A stretch of DNA of 64,000 nt from Alphaproteobacteria bacterium (GTDB taxonomy: Bacteria > Pseudomonadota > Alphaproteobacteria > UBA2966): contig JABIFY010000146.1 of assembly GCA_018650465.1 (NCBI GenBank), positions 1 to 64,000 of the forward strand, in the 5' to 3' direction. The notes under the pieces are model-generated. The model saw nothing but the letters and a program-made list of their open reading frames with translations. It was not told where the DNA came from and ran no database searches. This document shows, piece by piece, positions 2,278-17,483 of this stretch. Numbering within the stretch: the stretch's first letter is position 1; each line of letters begins with the position of its first letter. A program made the position numbers and the translations under genes.

Positions 2278-2931
2278 TTAGTCGTCGCTGAGATGCAGGC
2301 TCAGCCCGGCGCGAACGTGTCGGATCATTTCTGTGTGGGCTTCTTCCGGTGTGCCGGTGGCGATGACGTTATACAGGTCGACATGAACTTCGGGCTGTAC
2401 GGAAGCTTCATCGCCGCGCGTGGCTGCAAACAGCCACAATGAGATGCCGCGGTTCCAGATATTATCAAACATGTCCAGCAGGGCAGGATTGCCGACTTGC
2501 TCAACGATCAGCCGATGGATGTCCTTGTTGGCGATGAATTCTTCTTCGAGCGTTTGCTCACCACTCACCAATTCCGCGTCGACATTGGCTTTGATGATGG
2601 CCAGTTTTTCAGGTGAGCGATCCTCGGCCATCCGGTAAGCGGCGTAGCCTTCAATTGCTTCGCGCGCGCCATAGAGTGAACGAACTTCTTTGTCAGAAAT
2701 ATTGCGGATTGAAAAGCCCTTGCGGCCTGTCTGAACCAGCACGCCTTCCTGTTCCAGACGCAGCAAAGCCTCGCGCACAGGTGTGCGGCTGACATTGATC
2801 TCTTCGGCGATCTGTTCCTGGATCAGACGTTCACCCGGCTCGAACTGTCCGTTGACGATGGCATAGAGAATCTGCTCGTAGACATCGAGTGCCAGTCGCG
2901 GTTGAACAATGGGGGCGCGCTTGAATTTCAT
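2278..2931 (-). CDS. GntR family regulator, FCD type
   Basis: A 217-residue transcriptional regulator. The N-terminal winged helix-turn-helix (about residues 10-75) has the GntR pattern: YEQILYAIVNGQFEPGERL, then QEQIAEEINVSRTPVREALLRLEQEG. The C-terminal all-helical FCD ligand domain follows, with LYGAREAIEGYAA, the ERD-like D/H positions around NKDIHRLIVE and a terminal H in EEAHTEMIRHVRAGL. FCD regulators usually bind small carboxylates or amino-acid-like ligands, often through a metal. It is divergent from the RidA gene across 37 bases that contain a palindromic site. Matching sites occur before the amidotransferase operon and the oxidase/aldehyde dehydrogenase pair, so I infer it is the local repressor, controlling itself too. 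Confidence 0.9.
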   Translation of the reverse strand: MKFKRAPIVQPRLALDVYEQILYAIVNGQFEPGERLIQEQIAEEINVSRTPVREALLRLEQEGVLVQTGRKGFSIRNISDKEVRSLYGAREAIEGYAAYRMAEDRSPEKLAIIKANVDAELVSGEQTLEEEFIANKDIHRLIVEQVGNPALLDMFDNIWNRGISLWLFAATRGDEASVQPEVHVDLYNVIATGTPEEAHTEMIRHVRAGLSLHLSDD

Positions 2932-2946: not shown

Positions 2947-2963
2947 TTAAATACTGTATACAG
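2947..2963. promoter_or_regulatory. GntR operator copy 1
   Basis: TTAAATACTGTATACAG, matching 14 of 17 positions of TTGTATACTGTATACAA, the reverse complement of the perfect copy at 8481. It lies in the 37-base gap between the regulator gene and the divergent RidA gene and ends 6 bases before the RidA ATG, so occupancy should block both promoters. Confidence 0.75.
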
Positions 2964-2968
2964 GATAC

Positions 2969-3379
2969 ATGGTAGTTTTAACAGCACAAGGTAGCGGTCG
3001 TTTCGAAAAAATGGGTTCGTACTCACGAGCCAAGCGCGTTGGACCGTTCGTATATATCGCAGGCACCACGTCGATGCACAATGGCGAGCTGCAATCCCCT
3101 TTTGATATCTATGCTCAGTCGATCTTCATCTTTGATCAAATTGAAAAAGCACTGGGCGCTGTCGGGGCGGAAATGCGTCATGTCGTGCGGACCAAAGCCT
3201 ATGTCACGGATATGCGTGATGCCGGCGGATTTATCAAGGCCCACGGCGAGCTATTCAAAGATATTGAACCCGTTTTGACGGGTGTTCAGGCCGGTTTAAC
3301 GACGCCGGGCATGATGGTGGAAATCGAAGTGGATGCAATTATCCATGATGAGAACGGCAAGATAGACTACGGACAATAA
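2969..3379 (+). CDS. RidA-family imine/enamine deaminase
   Basis: A 136-residue member of the RidA/YjgF/Rid7-like family, which hydrolyses reactive enamine/imine intermediates to ketones or aldehydes and ammonia. Visible motifs are SGRFEKMGSYSRAKRVG near the start, VYIAGTTS, the RTKAYVTDM strand with the substrate-carboxylate-binding Arg of catalytically competent members, and MVEIEVDAI at the C-terminus. Homology upstream of GSYSRAKRVG supports the ATG at 2969 despite the weak ribosome site (AGGA only 3 bases away). It directly follows an operator and leads the transporter block. A deaminase of this kind would suit a pathway in which a flavin oxidase releases imines, which is my inference. 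Confidence 0.85.
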   Translation: MVVLTAQGSGRFEKMGSYSRAKRVGPFVYIAGTTSMHNGELQSPFDIYAQSIFIFDQIEKALGAVGAEMRHVVRTKAYVTDMRDAGGFIKAHGELFKDIEPVLTGVQAGLTTPGMMVEIEVDAIIHDENGKIDYGQ

Positions 3380-3578: not shown

Positions 3579-3601
3579 GTATCTGTCACAAGTATCTGTC
3601 A
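3579..3601 (+). repeat. tandem 13-bp repeat before transporter
   Basis: Two copies of GTATCTGTCA, 13 bases apart (3579 and 3592), end directly before the ATG of the permease-ATPase fusion. No ordinary ribosome site is seen there. Related gacag/ctgtc words occur through 3480-3601 and could form hairpins (for example around 3535-3575). Role unknown. Confidence 0.4.
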
Positions 3602-3602
3602 A

Positions 3603-5435
3603 ATGATTGACCAGCGTACAAGAGAGTGCGCTGTTTCTTTTGGGCTGTTGTTGCCAGTCATCATTGGTATTGTCTGGGCCGCATCAGCGACCGAGGTCGT
3701 CGGACGCGAATTGCTGCTTCTCGGTTGCGTCAACATCATTGCTGCTGTCGGCCTCGGCCTCTTTTCAGGCACCAGTGGCATTCTGTCCCTTGGGCATGTG
3801 GCCTTTTTTGGCGTTGGTGCCTACGTGGCCGCCTGGTTCACGCTGCCAGCTGCCATGAAATCGTTTCTCCTCCCCGATATGCCGCTTTTTGTCCAGGAAG
3901 CCGAATGGTCGCTGGCCATGGCATTACCCGTTGCGGCATTGGTCTGCATGTTGCTCGGTGTGATTTCCGGTGCCGTCATGATGCGGCTTCGGGATACCTC
4001 TGCCGTGATCGCCAGCTTTGGCTTGGTCGTTATATTCTATCTGGTGTTCATTGGCGCAAAACCCCTGACCAACGGCAAACAATCCCTTTACGGCCTGCCC
4101 GTAGATCAGGCCACCTGGCCGGTTTTCATCGGCACGATGGTCGTGGCCCTGGGCATTGCCTTTTATATGAAAAGTACGCGCTTTGCCCGCAACCTTGAAG
4201 CAACCCGCGATGAAGAACAGGCCTCACGCTCAATCGGCATCGAGCCACAATTCCATATTTTCATGTTCTGGGTCCTTAGCGCCGGGATCGTCGGCTTGGC
4301 GGGCGCGCTTTACGGTCATGTCATTGGCGTCATTTCACCCAGCGGATTCTACCTGGAGAAAACCTTCGCCCTGGTCGCCATGATTATTCTGGGTGGGTAC
4401 CGGTCGGTCAGTGGCTGCGTCGTCGGTGCGGTAGTGATTACCATAGCCGAAGAGATTTTTCGCAAGACGGAAGAACATCTCGGCACCTTTGCCGGCACTG
4501 AAACGATCTTCGGTTTTGAATTCCCGCTTGTCTTTGGTCTAACAGCGATCTCGTTTTCGATCATGATCCTGATCATTCTCTATACCCGGCCACAAGGCGT
4601 TTTGGGCTATCGGGAAATCGCCACCATGTTCAACGTCTTCGCGGCCAACAAAGACGACGCGGGAAAACATACAGAACTGCCAACATATAAAGTCTCCGCT
4701 GAACGCGTCCTTGAAACACACAACTTGTCGAAATCATATTCCGGCCTGAACGCCTTGGAAGATGTCGGGATCAAGGTCGGGGCAGGGGAGATCATCGGAC
4801 TGATCGGTCCTAACGGCGCAGGCAAAACGACCTTTATCAATGTGCTGACAGGTTCTCTTTTTGCGACTGATGGCAAGATCGAATTAAACAATGAAGTCGG
4901 CACAGAATGGAGCGCCGTCAAATTGGCGCGTAAAGGCCTTGGACGAACGTTCCAGAATATCAGGTTGTTTACTTCACTCAGTGCGCTTGAAAATGTCATC
5001 GCGGCCGTGACCGTACAGTCACCTGGCCTTGGCAGACGAGAAGTTGAAGCGACGGCCATGGGCTGGCTGAACTTCCTCAATCTTGGCGACAAGGCCCACA
5101 CTAATTCCGGCAACCTTGCCTATGGCGACCAGCGCAGGCTGGAGATTGCCAGGGCGTTGGCGCTGGAACCAGATTTCCTGTTGCTGGACGAACCAGTTGC
5201 AGGAATGAACTCCGTGGAAACAGAAGACCTGAAGAAAGGTCTTCAGCAAATTGTTTCCAAATTCGGTATCGGCATTCTGCTTGTCGAACATGACCTGAAA
5301 ATGGTCATGCAACTATGTGACCGGATTTATGTGTTGAACAAAGGTCAGCTCATTGCGGAAGGATTGCCCAAAGATATCGCCACCAATGCGGCTGTCATTG
5401 AGGCCTATGTCGGAGAGGAAACCGATCACCTGTAA
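3603..5435 (+). CDS. LivM-LivG fused ABC permease/ATPase
   Basis: A 610-residue fusion of a branched-chain amino acid type permease and its ATPase. Residues about 1-335 are LivM-like: many hydrophobic helices, LSLGHVAFFGVGAYVAA, the coupling-loop sequence NLEATRDEEQASRSIGI, and a terminal YTRPQGVLG. Residues about 368-605 are LivG-like, with Walker A GPNGAGKTT (about 402), LGRTFQNIRLF in the Q-loop area, LAYGDQRRLEIARAL (signature, variant of LSxGQ), Walker B FLLLDEPVAGM and H-loop LLVEHDLKMVM. HAAT-family importers carry amino acids, amides, urea or related compounds. It is followed 39 bases later by its binding protein. The fused form is a known variant. Start by the first ATG; no clear ribosome site. 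Confidence 0.9.
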   Translation: MIDQRTRECAVSFGLLLPVIIGIVWAASATEVVGRELLLLGCVNIIAAVGLGLFSGTSGILSLGHVAFFGVGAYVAAWFTLPAAMKSFLLPDMPLFVQEAEWSLAMALPVAALVCMLLGVISGAVMMRLRDTSAVIASFGLVVIFYLVFIGAKPLTNGKQSLYGLPVDQATWPVFIGTMVVALGIAFYMKSTRFARNLEATRDEEQASRSIGIEPQFHIFMFWVLSAGIVGLAGALYGHVIGVISPSGFYLEKTFALVAMIILGGYRSVSGCVVGAVVITIAEEIFRKTEEHLGTFAGTETIFGFEFPLVFGLTAISFSIMILIILYTRPQGVLGYREIATMFNVFAANKDDAGKHTELPTYKVSAERVLETHNLSKSYSGLNALEDVGIKVGAGEIIGLIGPNGAGKTTFINVLTGSLFATDGKIELNNEVGTEWSAVKLARKGLGRTFQNIRLFTSLSALENVIAAVTVQSPGLGRREVEATAMGWLNFLNLGDKAHTNSGNLAYGDQRRLEIARALALEPDFLLLDEPVAGMNSVETEDLKKGLQQIVSKFGIGILLVEHDLKMVMQLCDRIYVLNKGQLIAEGLPKDIATNAAVIEAYVGEETDHL

Positions 5436-5474
5436 CAATAAAATCAAGTTCAACCCCCCAACAGAGGAATGATC

Positions 5475-6650
5475 ATGTCTGTGAAAAAACTACTGGCTGC
5501 CGGCCTGGCGATTACCAGTCTTGCCGGACTAACGACAACACCTGTAAGTGCCGAAGATTTTGTCATTGGCGCCGTCAGCGCCCGCACTGGATTTATGGCC
5601 GCTTACGATACCCCCTTTATGCAGGGTGTTTCGATGTATATCGAGGAAGCCAACAAAGGCGGTGGCCTGAACGGTAAATATCCGATCAAACTGATTGAGC
5701 GCGACGATGGTTCTGATGTTCAAAAGGCGGCTATCTCGGTTGGTGAATTGCTCAAGAAGCAAAAGATGAGTGCCTTTATTTCCAGTGCGATTTCACCCGC
5801 GGCGATTGCCGCAGGCTCAATGGTCAGAAGTAAAGATTTGTTGATCATGCATACCATTGCCTCACAGCCAACCATTCCGGCCCGCGCCGGTGGCGGCAGT
5901 TATCTGGTGATGATGTCGGATGCCCACATGGGCGGAGTTTACGCTAAATTTGCCTACAATGATCTGAAGGCAAAGACGGCCTACATCGTCACATCAGATT
6001 TTGATCCCTACACAGAATTCCTGCCGCTGTATTTCAAGGACTTGTTTGAAAAGCAAGGCGGCAAGGTCATTGGTCAGTCTTCTTTTGCCTATGACCAACA
6101 GGAATTTTCCAAGGTTGTCTCTGCCATCAAGAAGTTGCCACAAGAGCCTGACGTCATTGTCGGCATGCCTTTTGACAATGACTTCCCTATTTTCATCAAC
6201 CAGCTTCGCGCAGCCGGTATCAAATCTACCTACCTCGGTCCGGACGTTCTGGATAACCCGTCCGTCAAGGGACTGGGCAAGGTTGTTGAAGGCGTTCACT
6301 ACGTCACAATGGCAGCACCTGCTGCCAGTGCTTCAGCAGACGCATTTGTCAAAGCCTACGCAAAGAAGTATGGCAACGCAGATGCTTATTATCCTGCCAT
6401 GGTGGGTTATTCTGCCATGCGCCTGGTCGCAGCTGCAGCCAAAGCTGCTGGGACAACGGACGCCAAAGCTGTTCGTGATGCCTTTGGCCAGTTGGAGAAT
6501 GTGCAAACAGAAATTGGTTCTGTCACCTACAAAGGTGTTGGCAAGCTTCCAAACTTGCCCGTGCATATTATGCGCATCGATGGTGGCAAAGGAACGTACC
6601 TGAAGTCCATCAAGCTTGACCCGTCTGAAATTCCGACGGCCAAGAAATAA
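5475..6650 (+). CDS. ABC transporter substrate-binding protein (LivK type)
   Basis: A 391-residue periplasmic binding protein of the Leu/Ile/Val-binding (PBP type 1, Peripla_BP_6) family. A Sec signal peptide is visible (MSVKKLLAAG, hydrophobic core, cleavage expected after VSA at about residue 26). The mature protein starts EDFVIGAVSARTGFMAAYD and contains GGLNGKYPIKLIERDDGSDVQKA, the usual strand-loop of the family where ligand amino and carboxylate groups are bound. I chose the ATG at 5475 because AGAGGA sits at proper distance; the ATG at 5469 is too close. The ligand cannot be read from sequence; the genomic context suggests an amine or amino acid derivative. Confidence 0.9.
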   Translation: MSVKKLLAAGLAITSLAGLTTTPVSAEDFVIGAVSARTGFMAAYDTPFMQGVSMYIEEANKGGGLNGKYPIKLIERDDGSDVQKAAISVGELLKKQKMSAFISSAISPAAIAAGSMVRSKDLLIMHTIASQPTIPARAGGGSYLVMMSDAHMGGVYAKFAYNDLKAKTAYIVTSDFDPYTEFLPLYFKDLFEKQGGKVIGQSSFAYDQQEFSKVVSAIKKLPQEPDVIVGMPFDNDFPIFINQLRAAGIKSTYLGPDVLDNPSVKGLGKVVEGVHYVTMAAPAASASADAFVKAYAKKYGNADAYYPAMVGYSAMRLVAAAAKAAGTTDAKAVRDAFGQLENVQTEIGSVTYKGVGKLPNLPVHIMRIDGGKGTYLKSIKLDPSEIPTAKK

Positions 6651-6657
6651 CTCTGGA

Positions 6658-6705
6658 TTTTCAGCAGGCTGTTGGTGTCACTATTTTCCTGCAGCCTGCT
6701 GAAAA
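6658..6705 (+). terminator. hairpin after binding-protein gene
   Basis: A perfect 14-base inverted repeat, TTTTCAGCAGGCTG and its complement (6658-6671 and 6692-6705), with a 20-base loop, lies 8 bases after the binding-protein stop. It is followed by only a weak T-rich stretch. It may protect the 3' end of an abundant binding-protein message or reduce transcription into the downstream genes, a common arrangement in ABC importer operons. Confidence 0.65.
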
Positions 6706-6739
6706 CCATTTTACTCTAATGAATTGACCAGAACCTTTC

Positions 6740-7447
6740 ATGTTAGTTGTCCAGGATATTGAAGTTTCCTACGGGGCTGTTGCCGCCGTAAAAGGCATCT
6801 CCTTTAACGTTGGAAAAGGGGAATTGGTCACGATTATCGGTGCCAATGGCGCTGGAAAATCGACCACGCTGAATGCCATCATGGGCCTGGTGCCGATTAC
6901 CGCCGGTGACATGTTGATGAAGGGTCAGACCCTGACCAGGGTGTCCGTTGAAAATCGGGTTGGTCTGGGTATGTCCTATTCGCCAGAAGGGCGTCGCGTC
7001 TTCAAGTCACTTTCTGTACTTGAAAACCTGAAAGCCGGCGGGACGACATTGTCCAAGGATGTGGCGGCAGAACGTATCGACCGGGTCATGGCACATTTCC
7101 CGACACTTCAGGAACGGCGCGATCAGGTTTCCGGCACTTTGTCCGGTGGCGAACAACAAATGCTGGCGATTGCCCGTGCCCTGGTGTCCGACCCTGAGTT
7201 TCTCATTCTGGATGAACCTTCTTTAGGGTTGGCCCCAAAGATTGTGTCCCAGGTTTTCGAAATTATTTCTGAACTACGCGGTTATGGCGTGACGATCCTG
7301 CTGGTCGAACAAAATATCAGCAAGAGCCTCGCCGTTGCAGATCGGGCTTATGTCATGGAACTGGGACTGATTGTTAAATCCGGGTTCGCAGCCGAATTGG
7401 CGGATGATCCCGAAATTCATGACAGCTATCTCGGCACAGCCGGTTAG
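6740..7447 (+). CDS. LivF-type ABC ATP-binding protein
   Basis: A 235-residue ATPase of the LivF kind, the second nucleotide-binding subunit of HAAT importers. Motifs are Walker A GANGAGKST (about 34-42), the LivF-typical YSPEGRRVFKSLSVLENL, signature LSGGEQQMLAIARAL (about 134), Walker B FLILDEPSLGLAP (about 155) and VEQN as H-loop region, where LivF proteins have Gln rather than His before Asn. It works with the ATPase half of the fusion protein. It lies between the binding protein and the LivH-type permease, 18 bases before the latter, so they are co-transcribed. Confidence 0.92.
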   Translation: MLVVQDIEVSYGAVAAVKGISFNVGKGELVTIIGANGAGKSTTLNAIMGLVPITAGDMLMKGQTLTRVSVENRVGLGMSYSPEGRRVFKSLSVLENLKAGGTTLSKDVAAERIDRVMAHFPTLQERRDQVSGTLSGGEQQMLAIARALVSDPEFLILDEPSLGLAPKIVSQVFEIISELRGYGVTILLVEQNISKSLAVADRAYVMELGLIVKSGFAAELADDPEIHDSYLGTAG

Positions 7448-7465
7448 TCAGGTACAGGAACGACG

Positions 7466-8353
7466 ATGGAAGAATTTGTCCAGTATATTGTTACCATCCT
7501 CAGCCTTGGCAGCATCTATGCCTTGCTGGCTCTGGGGCTGGTTGTTGTTTTTGGTCAGTTGGGGTTCCTGAATTTCGCCCACGGTGATTTGATGACCCTG
7601 TTCGGCTATTGCCTGCTGTTTCTGACCTTGGCGGGCACGCCTTTCTGGGTCGCGGTTCTCATCGCCATCGTCTTTGCCGGGCTGTGTGCGGTGGCCATGG
7701 AGCGTATTGCCTTTCGACCACTACGCGGGCAAAGCCCGATGAGTTTGCTGATTACCTCGTTTGCCATTTCCGGGGCCTTGCATGTCATTTTTCAGATCGC
7801 CATCAGCCCACGATCCAAGCCCATTCCAATTCCTGAATTCCTTTCCGGTTATTTCACCATTGGTGAAATTTTCATTGGTCGGGCTCAGGTTTTCACAATC
7901 ATCGTGGCCATCGGCTCGCTGTTGCTGCTGCGTTATTTCCTGACGCATTCACGGATGGGCATTGGCCTTCGGGCCTCGGCTGATGATTTCGACGTTGCCC
8001 GTGTCATGGGCATCAAAGCGAACCGGGTTATTGCCTTGGCTTTCTTCCTGTCCGGCGTTCTGGCAGGGATTGCCGCCTTACTGTGGATATCTCAACGCGG
8101 TGCCGTCTTTCCGACACTGGGCCTGACACCAATGATCAAGGCTTTGATCGCGGCAATCATAGGTGGGCTGACGAATCCCAAAGGGGCCTTGTACGGCGGT
8201 TTCTTCCTGGGGTTTCTTGAAGCGACGCTTCTCAGCATCCTGCCGGACGACCTGGTTGTTTTCCGGGATGCGGCGGTACTGTTGATTCTTGTGCTGTTCC
8301 TGATGTATCGGCCCAACGGCATGATCGCGACCAATCCGGAGCCCATGAGATGA
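7466..8353 (+). CDS. LivH-type ABC permease
   Basis: A 295-residue inner-membrane permease of the LivH family, with about eight hydrophobic helices. Recognisable segments are GSIYALLALGLVVVFGQLGFLNFAHGDLMTLFGY near the N-terminus and LLLRYFLTHSRMGIGLRASADDFDVARVMGIKANRVI, the cytoplasmic coupling loop that docks on the ATPase. Near the end come ALIAAIIGGLTNPKGALYGGFFLGFLE and a final MYRPNGM. It completes the importer: fused LivMG, binding protein, LivF, LivH. The start ATG at 7466 has GGAACGACG-type purines upstream. The next gene begins 159 bases later behind its own operator. Confidence 0.92.
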   Translation: MEEFVQYIVTILSLGSIYALLALGLVVVFGQLGFLNFAHGDLMTLFGYCLLFLTLAGTPFWVAVLIAIVFAGLCAVAMERIAFRPLRGQSPMSLLITSFAISGALHVIFQIAISPRSKPIPIPEFLSGYFTIGEIFIGRAQVFTIIVAIGSLLLLRYFLTHSRMGIGLRASADDFDVARVMGIKANRVIALAFFLSGVLAGIAALLWISQRGAVFPTLGLTPMIKALIAAIIGGLTNPKGALYGGFFLGFLEATLLSILPDDLVVFRDAAVLLILVLFLMYRPNGMIATNPEPMR

Positions 8354-8480
8354 CAGACATCCAGGGGGAATCTGTGAGCAGGGACCTGTTTAGAACCGTA
8401 GAGTTCTCACTTTTTTTGTCGAAAGCCAGACCTAAGTCTTGTGCAGGTGTGACAAAGCGCGTAAATCTCCAAACTGTATC

Positions 8481-8497
8481 TTGTATACAGTATACAA
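8481..8497. promoter_or_regulatory. GntR operator copy 2 (perfect palindrome)
   Basis: TTGTATACAGTATACAA: two perfect 8-base arms around a central A, typical in size of GntR/FCD operators. It lies 16 bases before the ATG of the amidotransferase gene, so this operon has its own regulated promoter even though the transporter lies just upstream. Confidence 0.82.
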
Positions 8498-8512
8498 ACA
8501 GGACAAATTGAT

Positions 8513-9457
8513 ATGTGTGGAATTGCAGGCCGAATACTTAACGCCCCGGGGAAAGTCGGGGATGATCTCGTTGAACTGATGGTCGCCCAGGAACACCGGG
8601 GATCAGACAGTACGGGATTTGCCATCTACGGCATTCCACGTGATACCGGATATGTGTTGCGCGGCATGGGTTTTGATAAAACCTCAATCGATTCAGATAT
8701 GGATGATTTCCGGAATATTCTGAAGTCGCATGGATCGGATTTCATCGAAGACCCGACATTTGTGACCAACGAAGACAGTCACTATTGCACCCGGATGGTG
8801 ATCAGTGATCCAAAGGATGTGACCCGGTGGATTAACGACGCTGACGAGATTACGGATCGTTTTGAAGTGCAGTCTTGTGGGCGGTCCCTGGAAATTATCA
8901 AGGATGTCGGCAGTTCTGATGATGTGGCGAACAAACATGGTGTGCGTGAATTGATCGGCACACATGGCCTCGGGCATGCTCGTCTGGCCACGGAAAGCTC
9001 TGTGCTACCGAACGCCAGCCACCCGTTCTGGGCCCGCCCGTTTCCGGATGTTGCTATCGTTCATAACGGCCAAATCACGGATTATTACACCTGGCGCACC
9101 AAGCTGGAGCACATGGGCTATCGCTTCCTGACCTACAACGACAGTGAGTTAATTGCTGTCTGGGTGTCTGACCAAATGAAAAACGGTTTGACCATGGAAC
9201 AAGCGCTGACCAAGTCGATCACATCCATTGACGGTGTTTTCACTTACATGATTGCCCAGCCCGACGGCATTGGTTTTGCCAAGGACCGTTTCGCCATGAA
9301 GCCACTTGTGACCGTACAGAACAATGGCGAGCTGGCTGCTGCAACTGAGGAACAAGCCGTACGTCGGGTGGTGCCGGACGAATCAGATATCATTAATTAC
9401 GATGGACCAAGCATGACGGACATCTGGGGTGTCGGTAACCGGAGGGCAGCCGCATGA
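8513..9457 (+). CDS. class II glutamine amidotransferase (GlxB/MgsA-like)
   Basis: A 314-residue Ntn-type glutamine amidotransferase. Met is followed directly by Cys2, the nucleophile (MCGIAGRI). The GATase II core is seen in EHRGSDSTGFAIYG, THGLGHARLATESS with the conserved Arg, and IVHNGQITDYYTWR (oxyanion-hole Asn/Gly). It corresponds to the glutaminase domain of glutamate synthase as a separate subunit; in methylotrophs the equivalent MgsA is part of N-methylglutamate synthase. The adjacent genes encode the other two subunits and overlap by ATGA. AGGA lies about 9 bases before the ATG. Likely role: ammonia release or gamma-glutamyl transfer within the synthase; substrate not determined. 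Confidence 0.87.
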   Translation: MCGIAGRILNAPGKVGDDLVELMVAQEHRGSDSTGFAIYGIPRDTGYVLRGMGFDKTSIDSDMDDFRNILKSHGSDFIEDPTFVTNEDSHYCTRMVISDPKDVTRWINDADEITDRFEVQSCGRSLEIIKDVGSSDDVANKHGVRELIGTHGLGHARLATESSVLPNASHPFWARPFPDVAIVHNGQITDYYTWRTKLEHMGYRFLTYNDSELIAVWVSDQMKNGLTMEQALTKSITSIDGVFTYMIAQPDGIGFAKDRFAMKPLVTVQNNGELAAATEEQAVRRVVPDESDIINYDGPSMTDIWGVGNRRAAA

Positions 9458-10146
9458 GTGACATCATAATCGAAGTCGGCGACCGCCATATCCGGGAGAT
9501 CAACGAGGACATCCAGGCCGCCTGCAAAACAGGTGAAAAGATCATCGTCCGCAACACGCTGTCGCGTCACAATCTGGGTATTGGGTTGCCTGATGGTGCC
9601 AACATCCATTTTGAAGGCAGCGTCGGATATTACTGCGGCGGGCTCAACAACGGTGCCACAATAACCATCGAGCGCAACGGCGGTTGGGGCATTGGTGAAG
9701 CCATGGCCAAGGGACACATAACCGTCGGTGGCTATGCCGGCATGTCGGTTGGTGCGGCAATGCTGGGTGGCACCATCCATGTCAAAGGCGATTCAGGTCC
9801 ACGCTGTGGCGTGGCCATGAAGGGCGGCAACATCATTGTTGAAGGCAAAATCGGCTACCAGTCCGGCTTTATGTCTCATTCCGGCAAGATCATCGCCTTG
9901 GGCGGTGCCGGTGCCTCCTGCGCTGATGCGCTGTGGGAGGGCGAAGTCTGGGTGGCAGGCGAAGTTGAAAGCCTTGGTGTTGATGTAAATATCATTGAGC
10001 CCAGCGCCGAAGATGTAGCCGAAGTTGAGGGTATTCTTGAACCCCTCGGCCTTAATGACAGTTCACGTGAATGGCGCAAAATGATCTCTGGTCAACGCCT
10101 ATGGTACTTTGAAAGTCGGGATGCAAACGCATGGCTAATGATATAG
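9454..10146 (+). CDS. GXGXG-domain glutamate synthase subunit (GlxC/MgsB-like)
   Basis: A 230-residue protein equal to the C-terminal right-handed beta-helix of glutamate synthase large subunit. Repeated glycine strands are seen: GSVGYYCGGLNNGATITI, GYAGMSVGAAMLGGTIHVKGDSGPRCGVAMKGGNIIVEGKIGYQSGF. As a free subunit it is the GlxC/MgsB type. It overlaps the amidotransferase stop by four bases (ATGA) and itself overlaps the FMN subunit by 16 bases, strong signs of translational coupling and a complex of fixed ratio. The GXGXG domain is structural in glutamate synthase; no active-site residues are expected. Confidence 0.88.
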   Translation: MSDIIIEVGDRHIREINEDIQAACKTGEKIIVRNTLSRHNLGIGLPDGANIHFEGSVGYYCGGLNNGATITIERNGGWGIGEAMAKGHITVGGYAGMSVGAAMLGGTIHVKGDSGPRCGVAMKGGNIIVEGKIGYQSGFMSHSGKIIALGGAGASCADALWEGEVWVAGEVESLGVDVNIIEPSAEDVAEVEGILEPLGLNDSSREWRKMISGQRLWYFESRDANAWLMI

Positions 10147-11552
10147 AAGACAAATACGAATATCCCTTTGAAATGCCTTCCGAGGAAGCCGTTGCTTATG
10201 GCGGCGGCAGGATTGAAGGACGCCCACCCGGCGTGCCGTCATCTTATGACCGGGGTGGCTCAACCAGGTGGACACCGGAGGCGCTTTCCGAAGTTCATGC
10301 CCTGTCGCAACTGGGGCGGTATCAGGTTCGTGGTTACAATACGTTCAACAAACAGATGCCGACGTTCGATGATCTGACTTTTGTGCCCGCGACCATGACC
10401 CGTTTACCGCTGGAAGGTTATCGTGAAAGCTGCGATGCCACGACGGTTCTTGGCGGTGGCAGTGGTCTGGTCGAAAAACCTATCGAGATGAAAATTCCGA
10501 TCTATATCGCATCCATGTCTTTCGGTGCGTTGTCGGCAAATGCCAAAGCCGCCCTTGGTTACGGTGCGTCCAAAGTGGGCACCATGACCTGTACCGGTGA
10601 AGGCGGCATGCTGGAAGAGGAGCGTGAGGCTTCAACTAGTTTGCTTTATCAAATGTCACCGTCCCGTTACGGCCTGGATCTCGACCATTTGCGCCGCGCC
10701 GATGCGCTGGAGCTGGTGGTGGGACAAGGTGCCAAGCCGGGTACTGGCGGGCTGTTGCTGGGTATGAAAGTCAGCAAACGTATTTCCGACATTCGCACGT
10801 TGCCGGAAGGTGTCGATCAACGCTCAACTATTCGTCACCCCGATTTTCTCGGTGCAGATGATCTGGCTGTGAAGGTCGAGGAACTGCGGATCGCAACCAA
10901 CTATCAGGTGCCAATTTTCCTGAAGATGGGTGCAACGCGTCCGCTTTATGATGTCGCTGTTGCCGCCAAGGCTGGTGTGGATGTCGTTGTCGTCGATGGT
11001 GCCGAAGGTGGCACAGGTGCGTCGCCTGAGATGTTGTTGAACCACACCGGTATTCCAACCATGAGCGCCATACCAGCGGCCCGTAAAGCATTGGAAGATT
11101 GCGGCATGTCCGGCAAGGTCAGTCTTGTCGCTGCCGGGGGTATTCGCTCCGGTGTTGATGCGGCCAAATGTCTGGCTCTCGGGGCTGATGCTGTGATGAT
11201 CGGCAACGGTGCCATGATTTCGCTCGGCTGTAATTCACCTTGTTATGAAGAAGATTATGCCAAGCTTGGGACGTCGCCAGGTGCCTGTCATCACTGTCAT
11301 ACGGGCTTGTGTCCGGTTGGTGTGGCGACACAGGAGCCACATCTGGAAGAACGCATGGATGTAGCCGCAGGTGCCGAACGTGTCGCTCGTTATTTGACAG
11401 CCATGACCATGGAAATCACGGCCCTGGCCAAAGCTTGTGGCAAGTCCAGTGTTCATAACCTTGAAATGGAAGACCTGCGTTCGATGTCTTTTGAGGCTTC
11501 TGCGTTCACAGGTGTTAAGATGGCGGGCATTGATAAGCCCTATACTTGGTAG
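10131..11552 (+). CDS. FMN-binding glutamate synthase subunit (GlxD/MgsC-like)
   Basis: A 473-residue protein equivalent to the FMN/synthase barrel of glutamate synthase. Motifs are IYIASMSFGALSANAKAALGYGA, the GEGGM(L) loop, GQGAKPGTGGLLLG, VVVDGAEGGTGASPEMLLNHTGIP and LVAAGGIRSGVDAAKCLALGADAVMIG. The cysteine group CNSPC...CHHCHTGLCPVG would bind an iron-sulfur cluster as in GltB. It forms the third subunit with the two genes before it. In the methylamine pathway the equivalent MgsC makes N-methylglutamate from glutamate (or gamma-glutamylmethylamide) and amine. Here the amine is unknown. About 85 bases separate it from the ligase gene, and the reading direction is the same. Confidence 0.88.
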   Translation: MANDIEDKYEYPFEMPSEEAVAYGGGRIEGRPPGVPSSYDRGGSTRWTPEALSEVHALSQLGRYQVRGYNTFNKQMPTFDDLTFVPATMTRLPLEGYRESCDATTVLGGGSGLVEKPIEMKIPIYIASMSFGALSANAKAALGYGASKVGTMTCTGEGGMLEEEREASTSLLYQMSPSRYGLDLDHLRRADALELVVGQGAKPGTGGLLLGMKVSKRISDIRTLPEGVDQRSTIRHPDFLGADDLAVKVEELRIATNYQVPIFLKMGATRPLYDVAVAAKAGVDVVVVDGAEGGTGASPEMLLNHTGIPTMSAIPAARKALEDCGMSGKVSLVAAGGIRSGVDAAKCLALGADAVMIGNGAMISLGCNSPCYEEDYAKLGTSPGACHHCHTGLCPVGVATQEPHLEERMDVAAGAERVARYLTAMTMEITALAKACGKSSVHNLEMEDLRSMSFEASAFTGVKMAGIDKPYTW

Positions 11553-11636
11553 GAATTGCTTCACGCTTGATCAGGATCTACTACTAAACTTGTTGGCAGG
11601 GTAAACTGCCAGCTCATTTTCCTGGGGAGGAAGACG

Positions 11637-12932
11637 ATGAGCGGAACTGTTACAGAGTTACCTGAAGGCACGCACACTGTGGTCCTGGGGGCAGGCGATG
11701 CCAACGGCATCATGCGCGGCAAACGCATTCCGGCCAGCCATTGGCCAACGGTTTGTGAAAGTGGCGCCGCTTTATCTATTGCGACGCTGGCCATCGATAT
11801 GACATGCGATGTCTGGGACACGCCTTATGTCAACTTTGACAATGGCTATCCCGACATGCATCTGTTTCCGGCGCGTGAAGCCTATGCCGTACCGTGGGAG
11901 GAGGGTGTCGCTTTTTGTTTTGGCCGTTTCGAATCCGTTGATCATCAGCCCATCCCCATTGATCCGCGCAACGCCCTGATCAAGGTTCTCAAACGTGCCG
12001 AAGATATGGGCTATGAAGTCAATATCGGGGCGGAGCTGGAATTCTATCTGCTGGACCCGGAAACCCTGAAACCACGGGACAGCGGTATCCAGGTTTACGG
12101 TCTGGCCAGGGCCGCCGCTTTGGAACATGTTCTCGGGCCGATCCGTCGGTATCTCAACGATGTGGGAATCCCCATTGAACAATCCAACCCGGAATATGCC
12201 GCCGGGCAAGTCGAAGTGAATATCCGCTATTCCGAAGCCTTGTTGGCAGCAGACCGGGCCGTGGCATTTCGCAGTTTGGTGAAAGAACTGGCCGTGTCCC
12301 AGAATTATCTGGCAACCTTTATGGCAAAACCTTTCATTGAAGAATCTGGCAGTGGCTTTCATGTCCATCACTCGCTTTGGAAAGATGGCAAGAACGCCTT
12401 TTCGGACGGTGGCAAGCTATCTGCCCTTGGCATGAATTACCTCGGCGGCATGCAAAAGCGTATGGCTGAAATGTCCCTGGTCGCCTCGGGCACACCCAAC
12501 GCCTATCGTCGTCGCCAGCCCTATACATTTTGCCCGATCAATTCAGCCTGGGGCGGTGACAACCGCACCGTGGGCTTACGTGTGATTGAGGGGAAAGACA
12601 GTGCTGTGCGGGTTGAAAAGCGCGATGGCTCAGCTGATTGCAATCCCTATTATCTGATCGCCTGCGAGATCGCTGCCGGTCTGGACGGGATCGAGCAAGG
12701 TTTGTCACCCTCTGAAAAGACGATGGGCAACGCTTACGAATCTGAAACTGCCGAACCCATTCCAACCGATCTGGCAACCGCCGTCGCACTGGCGAAAAAT
12801 TCAAACTTCCTGACGGGCGTTGTGGGTGAAAATTCCATGGGCATCATTGTCAGCCAGGCCGAACGTGAGCTTGAGTTTTTTGCCAATCAGGTGACGCAAG
12901 TCGAGATGGATCGATACCTGACAAACATGTAA
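11637..12932 (+). CDS. glutamine synthetase-like gamma-glutamyl ligase (GlnT/GmaS-like)
   Basis: A 431-residue glutamine synthetase homologue of the short GlnT/GmaS/PuuA class rather than housekeeping GlnA. Catalytic-core motifs are ELEFYLLDPE with metal-binding Glu, QSNPEYAAGQVEVN, GSGFHVHHSLW, and RRRQPYTFCPINSAWGGDNRTVGLRV with the phosphate-binding arginines. The substrate loop differs from GlnA, as in enzymes that join glutamate to amines such as methylamine, putrescine or ethanolamine. GGGGAGGAAGACG precedes the ATG. It closes the operon and is followed by an excellent terminator. Position directly after the three synthase subunits reproduces the mgsABC-gmaS order of methylamine utilisers. 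Confidence 0.87.
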   Translation: MSGTVTELPEGTHTVVLGAGDANGIMRGKRIPASHWPTVCESGAALSIATLAIDMTCDVWDTPYVNFDNGYPDMHLFPAREAYAVPWEEGVAFCFGRFESVDHQPIPIDPRNALIKVLKRAEDMGYEVNIGAELEFYLLDPETLKPRDSGIQVYGLARAAALEHVLGPIRRYLNDVGIPIEQSNPEYAAGQVEVNIRYSEALLAADRAVAFRSLVKELAVSQNYLATFMAKPFIEESGSGFHVHHSLWKDGKNAFSDGGKLSALGMNYLGGMQKRMAEMSLVASGTPNAYRRRQPYTFCPINSAWGGDNRTVGLRVIEGKDSAVRVEKRDGSADCNPYYLIACEIAAGLDGIEQGLSPSEKTMGNAYESETAEPIPTDLATAVALAKNSNFLTGVVGENSMGIIVSQAERELEFFANQVTQVEMDRYLTNM

Positions 12933-12953
12933 GAACGACTGATTGTTAAATGG

Positions 12954-12984
12954 AAAGGGCCGGTGTAAATACCGGCCCTTTTTG
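12954..12984. terminator. bidirectional intrinsic terminator
   Basis: AAAGGGCCGGT (12954-12964), a 6-base loop, and ACCGGCCCTTT (12971-12981) running into TTTT. The perfect 11-bp stem with A/T flanks on both sides can end both the ligase operon and the convergent flavoprotein gene. Confidence 0.92.
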
Positions 12985-13005
12985 TTATTTCACCAGCCCA
13001 CCTTA

Positions 13006-14298
13006 TTATTTCAGATGACGCATGTTTTCCCGAATGTCGACGACCCGATACAGGGCGTGCGCGATGGGCAGGAACCAGGGCCAGCCGCGATGCCAGAATT
13101 TTGTTTCCAGCGTCGTCTTTGTAAATGATGTCTCTCGACCCTGAACACCCAACATATTGAGCGCCGCCTTGTTGCCGAGATAGGGGGCCATGCCATTGCC
13201 GCTGCCGGAAAACCCCATGGCATGCCAGACGCCTTCCTGCTGACCAAGGTGGGGCAGGAAGGAAAAGCTGAAGCCTGTATTGCCGCGCCAACAGTGACTG
13301 ATACCCACGTTCTTGAGCTTGGGGAATATCTCCGCCAGTAGTCCATGCAATATTTTTTGAGCCTTGGCAAAAGGGATTTCCGACAGGCCAGCACGGGCAC
13401 CCAGGATGATGCGCTTGCCGTCGGGGGATTGGCGGTAATAACAATGACGGTGCCGGGTTTCCACGACCATGCGCCCGCCCGGCATGAGTTCTTCGATGAG
13501 TTCAGGTGGCAGTTCTTCTGTGGCGATCACATAAACCGTGACCGGGAAAATCCGTCGCTTCAACCACGAGAATGATTTTTTGGTGTAGCCATTGGTTGCC
13601 ATCAGAACCGAGCCCGCACGAACCGGGCCCCGATCCGTCATGACCTCGAAGCCGGAACCTGTCGCCTTCACACCGGAGACAGGTGTGTTGCCACAGACCG
13701 TGGCCCCGGCGCGTCGGGCGGCATCAACCATACTGGATAGATACTTGCCAGGGTGCAGACCGCCATGATCGTGTATCAGCAAGCCACCGGCATACATGTT
13801 TGTATTGACTTCCGCCTTCATCTTTTCCGGCGAAATCATTTCCACATTCATTGGTGCTATTTCGCGTAACTCATCCAGTGATTGGGCTGTCGCGTCATAT
13901 TCTGCTTTGTTCCACATGCCGCGAAATCGACCGTGGGTTTTAAAATCACAGTCGAGGTTTTCTTCCTGAATAAGGTTTTTGACAAAGCCCAAAGGCTCCA
14001 TATAGGTCTCGCGCAGCAGGTCCCGTGCCGTATCCATACCGTAACGCGCGGCCATGACTTGCAGTGGAACCCTGTGGCCTTCACCGACCATGCCACCATT
14101 TCTGGTACTCGCCCCGTGGCCGGGGGCCTCGGCGTCCAGAACCAGCACAGAAGCCCCATTTTTTGCCAGTGTACGTGCGGCGGAAGAGCCCGTTAATCCG
14201 GCCCCCACGACGACGGCATCATATTCGCTGTTGAATTCTGGTTGGGCATCGGTTTCGCGCTCTATGGCATCCCACCAGTAGGGGGTATTCACGGGCAT
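13006..14298 (-). CDS. FAD-dependent amine oxidase (PuuB/DadA-type)
   Basis: A 430-residue single-chain flavoprotein of the DAO superfamily. The Rossmann fingerprint is VVVGAGLTGSSAARTLAKNGASVLVLDAE (about 29-57). ASTRNGGMVGEGH is the region that follows in gamma-glutamylputrescine oxidase-like proteins, and the C-terminal FAD contact is GFSGSGNGMAPYLG. Enzymes of this type oxidise C-N bonds of gamma-glutamylated amines or N-substituted amino acids to imines and hydrogen peroxide. The gene is divergent from an aldehyde dehydrogenase, with a GntR operator between, and convergent with the ligase operon. I infer it oxidises the glutamylated or N-substituted product of that operon. Confidence 0.88.
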   Translation of the reverse strand: MPVNTPYWWDAIERETDAQPEFNSEYDAVVVGAGLTGSSAARTLAKNGASVLVLDAEAPGHGASTRNGGMVGEGHRVPLQVMAARYGMDTARDLLRETYMEPLGFVKNLIQEENLDCDFKTHGRFRGMWNKAEYDATAQSLDELREIAPMNVEMISPEKMKAEVNTNMYAGGLLIHDHGGLHPGKYLSSMVDAARRAGATVCGNTPVSGVKATGSGFEVMTDRGPVRAGSVLMATNGYTKKSFSWLKRRIFPVTVYVIATEELPPELIEELMPGGRMVVETRHRHCYYRQSPDGKRIILGARAGLSEIPFAKAQKILHGLLAEIFPKLKNVGISHCWRGNTGFSFSFLPHLGQQEGVWHAMGFSGSGNGMAPYLGNKAALNMLGVQGRETSFTKTTLETKFWHRGWPWFLPIAHALYRVVDIRENMRHLK

Positions 14299-14324
14299 TA
14301 CTGTTCATCCTTTGGCCGTCTGGA

Positions 14325-14349
14325 GCGATTTCGGATTTATCCGAATCGC
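14325..14349. repeat. dyad in oxidase leader
   Basis: GCGATT-T-CGGAT, TT, ATCCGAATCGC: an 11-bp dyad with one bulged base, lying 27 bases before the flavoprotein ATG. Transcribed from the operator region it would form a stable hairpin in the leader. It has no poly-U and no known family match that I recognise. Confidence 0.45.
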
Positions 14350-14453
14350 CTCGTCTCATATATGCGTTGCATTGCAACGGGTTACAGACATCAAGTGTTT
14401 CAACAAGAGTTGATAACACTCTACGCATTTCATTACTTGCAAATATATTGCTT

Positions 14454-14470
14454 TTGAATACAGTATACAA
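14454..14470. promoter_or_regulatory. GntR operator copy 3
   Basis: TTGAATACAGTATACAA differs from the perfect copy at 8481 by one base (A for T at position 4). It lies between the divergent flavoprotein and aldehyde dehydrogenase genes, 156 bases from the first ATG and 112 from the second, so one site can serve both directions. Confidence 0.8.
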
Positions 14471-14535
14471 ATAGATATTAACAAACAAATTTTTGATCGA
14501 CCTACGGGCAACGATCAGTCAAATCATGTGTGCAG

Positions 14536-14563
14536 ACAACCAGCGCCTTAAGGTGCTGGTTGT
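14536..14563. repeat. 28-bp palindrome before aldehyde dehydrogenase
   Basis: Arms ACAACCAGCGCCTT and AAGGTGCTGGTTGT meet with no spacer, with one G-T mismatch pair. The palindrome ends 6 bases before the GGAGG ribosome site of the aldehyde dehydrogenase gene. It could be a second operator or an RNA hairpin that modulates access to the ribosome site. Confidence 0.55.
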
Positions 14564-14581
14564 TCAATGGAGGTATCGGCA

Positions 14582-15997
14582 ATGGAAAAATTTCCCCTGA
14601 TTATCAATGGGTTCTCAACAAAGACATCCGAAACATTTGATGTCAAAAATCCGTCGACGGGTGAGATTGTTGGTTATGCGCCAAAGGCAAATCTTGAGCA
14701 GCTGGATTATGCCGTGAAAGCCGCCAACGATGCTTTCAAAGGTTGGAGCGATAAACCTGACGCAGACCGTGCCGCTGCCTGCCACGCTATTGGCGCGGCA
14801 TTGGAAGAAAATGCCGAAGACCTGGCCAGGCTTCTGACGCAGGAACAGGGCAAGCCGCTGAATGGTATGGGCTCACGGTTTGAACTGGGTGGCGCGTCTG
14901 CATGGGCGCATTTCACGGCTGAACTTGAACTGCCGGTCGAAGTTTTACAGGACAACAACGAGGGCAAGGTGGAAATGCACCGCAAGCCAATTGGCGTTGT
15001 AGGATCGATCACGCCCTGGAACTGGCCTGTGATGATCGCCATCTGGCATATTATTCCGGCTATCCGTGCGGGCAATACCGTTGTCGTCAAACCGTCACCC
15101 TACACGCCGCTGTCGACCATCCGCATGGTCGAAATCATGAACCAGATTTTACCTGCTGGTGTGGTCAACCTCATTGCAGGTGGAGACGAACTGGGTGCTG
15201 CCATGTCATCCCATGAAGGTATCGGTAAAATTATTTTTACAGGCTCCTGCGCTACAGGCAAAAAAGTTATGGCCGACGCGTCCGAAACACTCAAACGCCT
15301 GACCCTGGAACTGGGTGGCAACGATGCCGGTATCGTGCTGCCGGATGTTGATCCAAAACAAATCGCCGAAGGCTTGTTCTGGGGGGCGTTCATCAATGGC
15401 GGCCAAACCTGTGCCGCGCTAAAGCGTTTGTATGTGCATGACGATATTTATGACGAGGTCTGCAAGGAACTGACGGCCTTCGCCGGGAATATGAAGATGG
15501 GAGATGGCCTGGACGAAGAAAACGTGCTCGGTCCGATCCAGAATAAAATGCAGTATGACAAAGTTTCCGGCATGGTCGACGATGCCATCGAAAATGGCGG
15601 TCGGGTGCTGATGGGCGGCAAGCCAAATGGCGTTGGCAACGGCAAGGGTTATTATTATCCAATTACGCTGATCGCCGATGTTGATCACGGCGTCAAACTG
15701 GTCGATGAAGAACAGTTTGGCCCGGCGCTGCCGATTATCCGTTATTCCGATATCGACGAAGTCGTGGAACGGGCCAACGACAATCCCAATGGTCTGGGTG
15801 GCTCGGTGTGGTCCAACGATATTGAAGCGGCCAAAAAGATCGCCCTGAAAATGGAATGCGGCACGGTCTGGATTAACAAACACGGCATGATCCAGCCCAA
15901 CGCACCCTTTGGCGGTGTTAAAGGCTCAGGCATTGGCGTTGAATTTGGCGAAGAAGGCCTGAAAGAATATACCAATATTCAGGTCGTCATGAGCTAG
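14582..15997 (+). CDS. NAD(P)-dependent aldehyde dehydrogenase
   Basis: A 471-residue ALDH-superfamily enzyme oxidising an aldehyde to its acid. The fold's landmarks are present: SITPWNWPVMIAIWHIIPAIRAGNTVVVKPS (coenzyme site and Asn), the FTGSCATGKK turn, catalytic Glu243 in LELGGND, and nucleophile Cys277 in GGQTCAA. EEQFGPALPI and NPNGLGGSVWS follow near the end. The start at 14582 is chosen because GGAGG lies 8 bases upstream; the ATG at 14567 overlaps that ribosome site. It is divergent from the amine oxidase and shares its operator. I infer it removes the aldehyde made by the oxidase. Confidence 0.92.
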   Translation: MEKFPLIINGFSTKTSETFDVKNPSTGEIVGYAPKANLEQLDYAVKAANDAFKGWSDKPDADRAAACHAIGAALEENAEDLARLLTQEQGKPLNGMGSRFELGGASAWAHFTAELELPVEVLQDNNEGKVEMHRKPIGVVGSITPWNWPVMIAIWHIIPAIRAGNTVVVKPSPYTPLSTIRMVEIMNQILPAGVVNLIAGGDELGAAMSSHEGIGKIIFTGSCATGKKVMADASETLKRLTLELGGNDAGIVLPDVDPKQIAEGLFWGAFINGGQTCAALKRLYVHDDIYDEVCKELTAFAGNMKMGDGLDEENVLGPIQNKMQYDKVSGMVDDAIENGGRVLMGGKPNGVGNGKGYYYPITLIADVDHGVKLVDEEQFGPALPIIRYSDIDEVVERANDNPNGLGGSVWSNDIEAAKKIALKMECGTVWINKHGMIQPNAPFGGVKGSGIGVEFGEEGLKEYTNIQVVMS

Positions 15998-16024
15998 GGC
16001 TGTTCCTGGACTAAATCGGGTTTG

Positions 16025-16804
16025 CTATTTCGCCAAATGGGCAAAGATACTAAGTCTCGGTTTGGCATTCATGGCACGGGTTTTATGGCCCTGACCGGTG
16101 GTATCGCCGCCAAGAAAAATATCGCCAGGGTGAATATCCCTCGTCCTGGCGTCGCTGGTTTCAACCTGCATTCCTGATGTCAGATTGAGCACAAATTGTT
16201 TTTGCGGCGCATTGTGAAAGCCGTGGTCCAGCGAGCCCGGTTTGAAGACAAATTGATAGCCCACCAAAGGAAGCGCTGCAGTGGCCTTACCAAGCGGCGC
16301 GTTGTAACAATAGCTCAGCGTGTCATCGACGAAGTGCGAGGCACCGTCTCGTCCGGCCATTGTCCGGGTGAGAGGCCCGGTCCGTTGTTGGGCGTCTTCC
16401 AGCAAAGTCCAGTCGGGGCGAATCTTTTCACCGATCTCGATTAAGGCAGTATGCATGTCAAGTCCGCCAACAACGCGGGTTTTATGACCTTCCCCGGTGG
16501 TGTCCAGAATATCGATCATGTCTCCGGTACCAAAAACCTTGTGGTCTCCCTGACCGACCTCTATTTCCATCTGACCATCCAGAACTAAAATGAGTCGACG
16601 GCGGGAGGCGGTATGAAAACCCTTCGCGAAGTCAGCGGGCGTCCAGACAAAGGCAACTTCCTTGGCCGGGAAAACCTCAGTCTCGGCACCGTGCGCGTGA
16701 ATGTTATGGAATGGAATTTCTGTTTCTTTAAACAGGGAAGGGCCATCACCATCAGATACAATCTGTACTAATGTTATGGAATCAGGGTAATTGAGATCGT
16801 TCAA
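16025..16804 (-). CDS. bicupin protein
   Basis: A 259-residue protein with two cupin halves that are clearly duplicates. The first half has FHTASRRRLILVLDGQMEIE...GTGDMIDILDTTGEGHKTR and the second FHNAPQKQFVLNLTSGMQVE...HPGDIFLGGDTTGQGHKTR. Each half carries a G-x-M beta strand and a DTTGxGHKT ending; metal-binding His/Glu residues are only partly evident. Cupins of this kind act as dioxygenases, isomerases or small-ligand binders. It is convergent with the aldehyde dehydrogenase (27 bases apart). No copy of the GntR operator is seen upstream, so membership of that regulon is only suggested by position. Confidence 0.8.
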   Translation of the reverse strand: MNDLNYPDSITLVQIVSDGDGPSLFKETEIPFHNIHAHGAETEVFPAKEVAFVWTPADFAKGFHTASRRRLILVLDGQMEIEVGQGDHKVFGTGDMIDILDTTGEGHKTRVVGGLDMHTALIEIGEKIRPDWTLLEDAQQRTGPLTRTMAGRDGASHFVDDTLSYCYNAPLGKATAALPLVGYQFVFKPGSLDHGFHNAPQKQFVLNLTSGMQVETSDARTRDIHPGDIFLGGDTTGQGHKTRAMNAKPRLSIFAHLAK

Positions 16805-16887
16805 GCCAATGACTCCAGGGAACCAATATTTTTAGGAAAATTATTCTTGAACCGAAGATTGCCCGACTTTTTCTTCAATGGGAAGCG

Positions 16888-17301
16888 CTACACCCGTATT
16901 GTCAATTGTCGAACAGAGTTCAGATAGGCCATATCTTCAATCAGAATATGAGTCTGTAACCATTTGACCAGAAAGCCAATGAAATCATCCATATCAAAGG
17001 TTTCAGGGTTGGTTTTGTAGTTTTCTGCATAGCTGTTCATTTGTGCGGTGAGCGACGTGTGGGCGGTGGCGTGTGGTTTCAAGTTGATATAGTGAATTGA
17101 AGCCAGCAAGCTTTCTTCGCGCGCGAAATGGTCGTTCACGTAATCCACTAACTGAATTATTGCAGTGTCAACTTCATCGTCAGCGCTGCCCGCTTCAAAA
17201 CTGTCGTGCAATTTGTTAACGAGGGAAAAGATTTTTTCGTGGTCTCTGTCGATATCCGGGATACCGGTCAGATAAATGTCCGACCAACTAATTGCAGGCA
17301 T
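16888..17301 (-). CDS. bacteriohemerythrin
   Basis: A 137-residue single-domain hemerythrin that binds oxygen at a di-iron centre. All seven expected ligands can be placed: His21 (DIDRDHEKIF), His58 and Glu62 (NDHFAREE), His77 and His81 (KPHATAHTSL), His118 and Asp123 (QTHILIEDMAY). It starts MPAISWSDIYLTGIPDID, typical of the family. AGGAG lies 8 bases before the ATG. It may store or sense oxygen in the cytoplasm. A monocistronic gene; the nearest upstream region on its strand is the degraded DUF1611 locus. Confidence 0.93.
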   Translation of the reverse strand: MPAISWSDIYLTGIPDIDRDHEKIFSLVNKLHDSFEAGSADDEVDTAIIQLVDYVNDHFAREESLLASIHYINLKPHATAHTSLTAQMNSYAENYKTNPETFDMDDFIGFLVKWLQTHILIEDMAYLNSVRQLTIRV

Positions 17302-17483
17302 TTAAAAAATCTCCTGATTCGAAGCGCGAAACTGTATCAATCAAATTAATTTTCATAATAACTATGATGCAGAAAGAGGCCGGTTTCGGTACGTTTAAAC
17401 CAAGACGCTTGTCGGCAATTGCTACTCATGGAACCAATATGTGGCTCTACCAAGCTGAACAGTAGGCGCTTTTTCAAAATGAG

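Follow-up and report, generated by a model that had tools for sequence, protein, structure and literature searches.

The window analysed here (the whole stretch of 64,000 nucleotides, positions 1 to 64,000 of contig JABIFY010000146.1 in assembly GCA_018650465.1, from an alphaproteobacterium of the UBA2966 lineage) carries a gene cluster that probably represents a so far undescribed version of the N-methylglutamate pathway. Its co-regulated genes probably serve to break down an organic amine, a small primary alkylamine being the likeliest, by way of an N-alkylglutamate, a single-chain oxidase and an aldehyde dehydrogenase (ALDH). Between 8513 and 15997 the cluster encodes a class-II amidotransferase, GXGXG and flavin mononucleotide (FMN) subunits of glutamate-synthase type, a ligase resembling glutamine synthetase (GS), a flavin adenine dinucleotide (FAD) oxidase and an ALDH, all full length. 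An earlier reading of the letters alone (the sequence-only reading) had listed these six genes, and all were present in the order given there, with Pfam support. The interval it had drawn did not cover the full unit, which starts upstream at 2278 with a GntR-FCD regulator and also takes in a Rid protein and a Liv-type ATP-binding cassette (ABC) transporter. The whole set, from regulator to ALDH, is kept in the same order at 62-85% identity in two near-complete genomes, G002, from the family of the window genome, and G007, a metagenome-assembled genome (MAG) of the Sneathiellales from its class (locus L087). The features of the cluster are as follows.

2278..2931, minus strand: GntR-family (FCD) regulator, presumed repressor (PF00392 and PF07729)
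2948..2969, no strand: operator 1, TGTATACAGGATACA, between gntR and the Rid/Liv operon; overlaps the first possible Rid start codon
2969..3379, plus strand: Rid-family (YjgF/YER057c) protein (PF01042, E 1.4e-21)
3603..5435, plus strand: LivM-LivG fusion (permease and ATPase) of a branched-chain/amide type ABC transporter (PF02653 and PF00005)
5469..6650, plus strand: LivK-type periplasmic binding protein (PF13458)
6740..7447, plus strand: LivF-type ATPase (from its translation; order kept in G002 and G007)
7466..8353, plus strand: LivH-type permease (from its translation; order kept in G002 and G007)
8475..8496, no strand: operator 2, TGTATACAGTATACA, preceding the trio-ligase operon
8513..9457, plus strand: class-II glutamine amidotransferase subunit, MgsA/GlxB-like (PF13522/PF13537; N-terminal Cys, MCGIAG)
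9454..10146, plus strand: GXGXG subunit, MgsB/GlxC-like (PF01493)
10131..11552, plus strand: FMN-binding glutamate-synthase subunit, MgsC/GlxD-like, proposed N-alkylglutamate synthase core (PF01645, E 8e-97)
11637..12932, plus strand: GS-like ligase, proposed gamma-glutamyl-alkylamide synthetase (PF00120, E 5e-86)
13006..14298, minus strand: single-chain FAD oxidase (DAO family), proposed N-alkylglutamate oxidase (PF01266, E 1e-56)
14455..14469, no strand: operator 3, TGAATACAGTATACA, between the divergent oxidase and ALDH genes
14567..15997, plus strand: NAD(P)-dependent ALDH, non-acylating type (PF00171, E 8e-146)

The operator consists of the palindrome TGTATACA and a second, partly overlapping copy, and stands at three promoters of the cluster, with TGTATACAGTATACA-like sites at 2955, 8482 and 14455. 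When the genome (4.8 Mb) was searched with TGTATACAGTATACA at no more than one mismatch, all matches lay at these three promoters; two-mismatch sites elsewhere were few, their number being near that of a reversed-pattern control. The common operator proposed in the sequence-only reading is thus real. Across 82 related loci, 107 of 109 TGTATACA octamers lay at promoters of module genes (8.5 expected if evenly spread), these copies not being independent events, as many of the 82 loci are related to each other. Copies were present in loci of the window, microcompartment and cytochrome P450 types (described below), including one from an actinobacterium (L091). The GntR-FCD regulator was 68-70% identical in G007 and G002, with a median identity of 41% over 42 related loci. 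Acting as a repressor on the three operators, it would control three transcription units, and the regulon would be induced by its substrate.

The ligase was aligned with E. coli GlnA, PuuA, IpuC and GmaS. It was 38% identical to IpuC (the reference being a plasmid-encoded P. aurescens protein annotated as a homologue, as distinct from the characterised IpuC), 31% to PuuA and 30% to GmaS, and scored 222 bits against the type III GlnT model (cut-off 470 bits); the GmaS/GlnT-like label first given to it was replaced accordingly. Residues E129, E131, E212, E220, H269, R321, R339, R344, E357 and R359 were kept, which we take to be the metal, glutamate and phosphate ligands of bacterial GS, with Y179 and S53 presumably forming the ammonium site and E327 the flap. 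The ammonia-assimilating signature at these last three positions was not found in the window ligase (Y179 to V, S53 to Y, E327 to F), and the same sites are altered in PuuA, IpuC and GmaS, the flap position being Tyr in PuuA and Trp in IpuC and GmaS. This residue pattern is that of the organic-amine ligases (GoaS), and activity on an amine is predicted from it.

The three synthase subunits (the trio) were 29, 35 and 53% identical to mgsABC of P. alcaliphilus, and the order of trio and ligase is that of mgsABC-gmaS, as had been noted from the letters. Across related loci, identity was 59-78% for the amidotransferase subunit, 66-83% for the GXGXG subunit and 77-87% (43 loci) for the FMN subunit. 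At 77% identity or above, the FMN subunit of the module was found in every sampled genome of the oxidase or microcompartment type, even if absent from the ligase locus, and was missing from all five P450-type genomes sampled; the trio therefore goes with an oxidising back end, not with a hydroxylase route. The mgsABC-gmaS genes of M. extorquens make N-methylglutamate in P. putida, and N-methylglutamate synthase, whose cofactor is not known, has been proposed to transfer the methylamino group to 2-oxoglutarate (PMC6237917).

The four-subunit dehydrogenase MgdABCD is missing from the cluster, as the sequence-only reading had stated, though not from the genome. Orthologues of mgdA, mgdD and mgdB (64, 72 and 79% identical to those of Paracoccus alcaliphilus) were located on contig C159, which rules out a genome-wide absence. 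The same region (C159:18000-32523, locus L103) carries its own GntR regulator, a 447-residue FAD oxidase, a second synthase trio and a 490-residue GS-like ligase that is 30% identical to GmaS and distinct from both GmaS and the window ligase; a separate sox-type set lies on contig C52. No operator copy was found on C159 in the genome-wide match search, and the mgd genes are in this respect outside the control of the cluster. The refuting case named in the sequence-only reading, mgdABCD elsewhere in the genome with shared control, thus did not arise. G002 and G007 each hold the window cluster with one trio, and mgdA above 50% identity (the level of SoxA) was not found in either genome; mgd is therefore not required for the module. 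They are examples of the gene set without mgdABCD in other genomes, a co-occurrence that the sequence-only reading had proposed to look for.

The best family for the window oxidase was the AmaA L-pipecolate oxidase (153 bits, below the 600-bit cut-off), and its identity was 31% to PuuB and 23% to MgdB. Its predicted structure (mean predicted local distance difference test score 58, from 6 sequences) was too poor for structure search. AmaA oxidises L-pipecolate, a cyclic N-alkyl amino acid, and so gives a precedent for oxidation of an N-CH2 bond beside an amino acid. The ALDH best matched the aminobutyraldehyde dehydrogenase family PRK13473 (424 bits, below the 615-bit cut-off) and was 34% identical to PuuC. 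The Rid protein is conserved in most module loci, where the position of Arg105 of E. coli RidA is Leu, Thr or Ser; the window protein has Leu there in the alignment.

Named genomes were scanned with the window ligase, giving 80 loci. The ligase, trio, Rid protein, GntR regulator and operator mostly occur together in these relatives, and the back end varies. At 55 loci genes for a bacterial microcompartment (BMC) follow the ligase: BMC-P and BMC-H come first, then a protein of opine-dehydrogenase fold, an acylating ALDH, BMC-T, a dehydrogenase of lactate/malate type and a Rid protein. The opposite strand encodes an MTOX-like oxidase, and some genes are missing at contig ends. Such loci around the same ligase (L027, L037, L044, L055 and about 50 more) were found mainly in marine Rhodobacteraceae and other Alphaproteobacteria, with some Gammaproteobacteria (named strains include Ruegeria profundi ZGT108, Falsiruegeria mediterranea M17 and Hoeflea alexandrii), the taxonomy of related loci being limited by MAG contigs. 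No BMC-domain protein (PF00936) was found in the window genome. Protein cluster c2 of the microcompartment loci was rejected as two opine dehydrogenases, the pair having been merged through a fused open reading frame in L040: c2b is an ALDH that acylates coenzyme A (CoA), and c2a has the opine-dehydrogenase fold (1bg6, E 1e-17) with its catalytic His, at the position we take it to occupy, seemingly replaced. No mechanism was built on c2a for this reason.

Other back ends were seen among the relatives. In L022, L026 and L033 an ALDH is accompanied by acyl-CoA ligases (PRK12583 above its cut-off, an MbcS-like one below cut-off). The oxidases of the loci with a c36 oxidase and of the microcompartment loci come from other DAO branches (ThiO- and MTOX-like). 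Six related loci have a P450 and no trio, and three of these six also have a class-I amidotransferase (c16), which was present in 22 of the 55 microcompartment loci and in none of the 11 trio-plus-oxidase loci. In the ligase tree, three trio-plus-oxidase types form separate clades nested among the microcompartment types, with Phaeobacter marinintestinus (microcompartment) beside L033, L022 and L026 (support 100/98); the core was therefore retained through more than one exchange of the back end. The window ALDH, the ALDH with acyl-CoA ligases and the CoA-acylating ALDH are all consistent with a common aldehyde, R-CHO.

The following route is proposed. From its residues, the GS-like ligase would join glutamate and an amine, with ATP, to a gamma-glutamyl alkylamide. 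By homology to MgsABC, the amidotransferase subunit would free the amine again, and the FMN and GXGXG subunits would join it reductively to 2-oxoglutarate, giving N-alkylglutamate and glutamate. The single-chain FAD oxidase, instead of MgdABCD, would then oxidise the N-CH2 bond of the N-alkylglutamate, imine hydrolysis would yield glutamate and R-CHO, and the ALDH would convert R-CHO to R-COOH. The substrate would be imported by the Liv-type transporter. A small primary alkylamine of about C2-C5 is favoured, because sister loci appear to make short acyl-CoA and methylamine probably has its own set. The hybrid route of the sequence-only reading, from amine via a glutamate conjugate to glutamate and aldehyde and then acid, fits all of these results and is strengthened by the ligase active-site residues, operator sharing, the mgd-less relatives and the acylating ALDH or acyl-CoA ligases of sister loci; the ligase type and the genome-wide absence of mgd did not stand, and the PuuB-like reaction is the less likely one.

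Several points weigh against the N-alkylglutamate route. The oxidase lies above no curated family cut-off, and its assignment to N-alkylglutamate is by elimination. The ligase is just 38% identical to IpuC, and the missing Arg105 weakens the case for the Rid protein as a plain imine hydrolase. A transporter of Liv type points to a ligand resembling an amino acid or amide more than to a bare alkylamine, and the closest solved structures to LivK are branched-chain amino acid binding proteins. The activities of the members and the substrate are predictions from sequence. A further point is the best-surviving alternative, that the same glutamate-conjugate chemistry serves a functional amine or amino-acid-like substrate (ethanolamine, beta-alanine, taurine, aminopropanol or a cyclic amine). 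The branched-chain-type transporter speaks for it, as do the P450-type relatives, which suit cyclic or branched amines, and GlnA4, which shows that GS-like ligases can serve ethanolamine (PMC6529630). It was judged unlikely, if the least so of the alternatives, since sister loci have short-chain acyl-CoA ligases and an ALDH of acetylating type, which indicate simple acyl chains, and since none of the genes conserved in the module was identified as coding for a sulfonate, phosphonate or B12 enzyme.

In a Puu-like route the ligase would glutamylate a diamine or an amino-alkyl compound at one end; the other, free end would be oxidised by a PuuB-like oxidase and then the ALDH, and the product would be set free by a hydrolase, with the trio just recycling nitrogen. 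The identities of oxidase, ALDH and ligase to PuuB, PuuC and PuuA agree with this, as does the best ALDH family. Against it, the window cluster was not found to encode a PuuD-like hydrolase, and c16 is absent from the trio-plus-oxidase loci; the oxidases of the c36-oxidase and microcompartment loci are of other DAO branches; and acyl-CoA-forming back ends are easier to reconcile with a plain than with a gamma-glutamyl-amino aldehyde. This route is accordingly given a low probability. Because no such hydrolase was found in the window cluster and the synthase trio is present, a PuuB-like oxidation of a gamma-glutamylated diamine is less likely than oxidation of an N-alkylglutamate.

Lower still was ranked the possibility of methylamine (C1) catabolism, in which the cluster would be a redundant N-methylglutamate pathway that releases formaldehyde, with a single-chain oxidase in place of MgdABCD. 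The mgsABC-gmaS gene order, the homologous trio and the organic-amine type of the ligase are what such a pathway would have. However, on C159, outside the regulon, the genome already has mgdABCD together with another trio and ligase; the window ligase is nearer IpuC than GmaS; and relatives carry acyl-CoA-forming enzymes, which are needless for formaldehyde. An accessory GS/glutamate synthase (GOGAT) with archaeal-type subunits for ammonia assimilation has family-level homology in its favour and was dismissed as very improbable, since the ligase has lost the ammonium-site and flap residues, one operator ties the genes to oxidase, ALDH and transporter, and other GS and glutamate synthase copies are present in the genome.

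The cluster was compared with known systems. It shares trio homologues, trio-ligase order and GS/GOGAT-like logic with the N-methylglutamate pathway (mgsABC-gmaS-mgdABCD; PMC6237917), but its ligase is of another branch and not a GmaS orthologue, a single-chain DAO oxidase replaces MgdABCD, and an ALDH, GntR operator, Rid protein and Liv transporter are added. A GS-like ligase, a DAO-type oxidase and an ALDH (each 31-34% identical) are shared with the Puu pathway (PuuABCD), whereas a synthase trio is present, the regulator and the transporter differ and no PuuD-type class-I amidotransferase was found among the genes of 2278-17301. The ligases of the Ipu pathway and the GoaS group (IpuC, AtdA1, NpaA1) are the closest named ones, with similar ammonium-site substitutions, and the ipuC neighbourhood on P. 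aurescens pTC2 is resembled by the P450-type relatives; unlike the Ipu pathway, the window has trio and oxidase and lacks monooxygenase and hydrolase. Streptomyces GlnA4 clusters for ethanolamine likewise combine a GS-like ligase with an aldehyde dehydrogenase, but have a short-chain dehydrogenase and an amidotransferase, and no trio or DAO oxidase is listed for them (PMC6529630). Metabolosomes of unassigned function (MIC, MUF and BUF, in a catalogue of 68 microcompartment types; PMC4207490, PMC8217296) resemble the sister loci in BMC-H, BMC-T, BMC-P, acylating ALDH and lactate/malate-type dehydrogenase, in contrast to the window genome with its lack of BMC-domain proteins. Nothing specific on this microcompartment type or on N-ethylglutamate catabolism was found in the literature, the diagrams of catalogued types (PMC8217296 supplement) lying outside the comparison.

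If the N-alkylglutamate route is correct, glutamate-conjugate amine oxidation reaches beyond methylamine and does not need the four-subunit dehydrogenase. With somewhat less than even confidence, we also suggest that ligase, trio, Rid protein, GntR regulator and operator form an amine core set on interchangeable aldehyde back ends, and that the window has the shell-free form. In the microcompartment form, a metabolosome lacking radical and B12 enzymes would take in amines conjugated to glutamate and process them via N-substituted glutamate and a CoA-acylating ALDH. The operator and ligase common to the locus types would then give a testable substrate class for the microcompartment loci of marine Rhodobacteraceae and others, for which no description of function was found in the literature.

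Some further observations were made around the cluster and its relatives. A double-cupin-like protein (16025-16804) without Pfam or NCBIfam match adjoins a bacteriohemerythrin (16888-17301) in the window; it was ruled out as a regulon member, having no operator and not lying near the cluster in G007. A class-I aldolase-like protein comes after the ligase in L093, L094 and L095 (SAR116 and relatives); these loci have neither trio nor operator, and the ligase may serve another purpose there. At L027:5012-5359 and L042:7524-7880, small proteins of 116-119 residues that contain Cys (c33, c35) lie between trio and microcompartment genes, sometimes with their own operator; the one tested had no Pfam match. 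At L016:11385-16157 an oxidase is flanked by two ALDHs, one like that of the window and one like those of L022 and L033. Locus L106 (Mesorhizobium loti NZP2037 plasmid, 10071-17473) combines a P450, a 2Fe-2S protein, a permease, a ligase (62% identical to that of the window), a tetratricopeptide repeat (TPR) protein and a PuuD-like hydrolase, with 3-sulfinopropanoyl-CoA desulfinase and a CoA transferase as neighbours.

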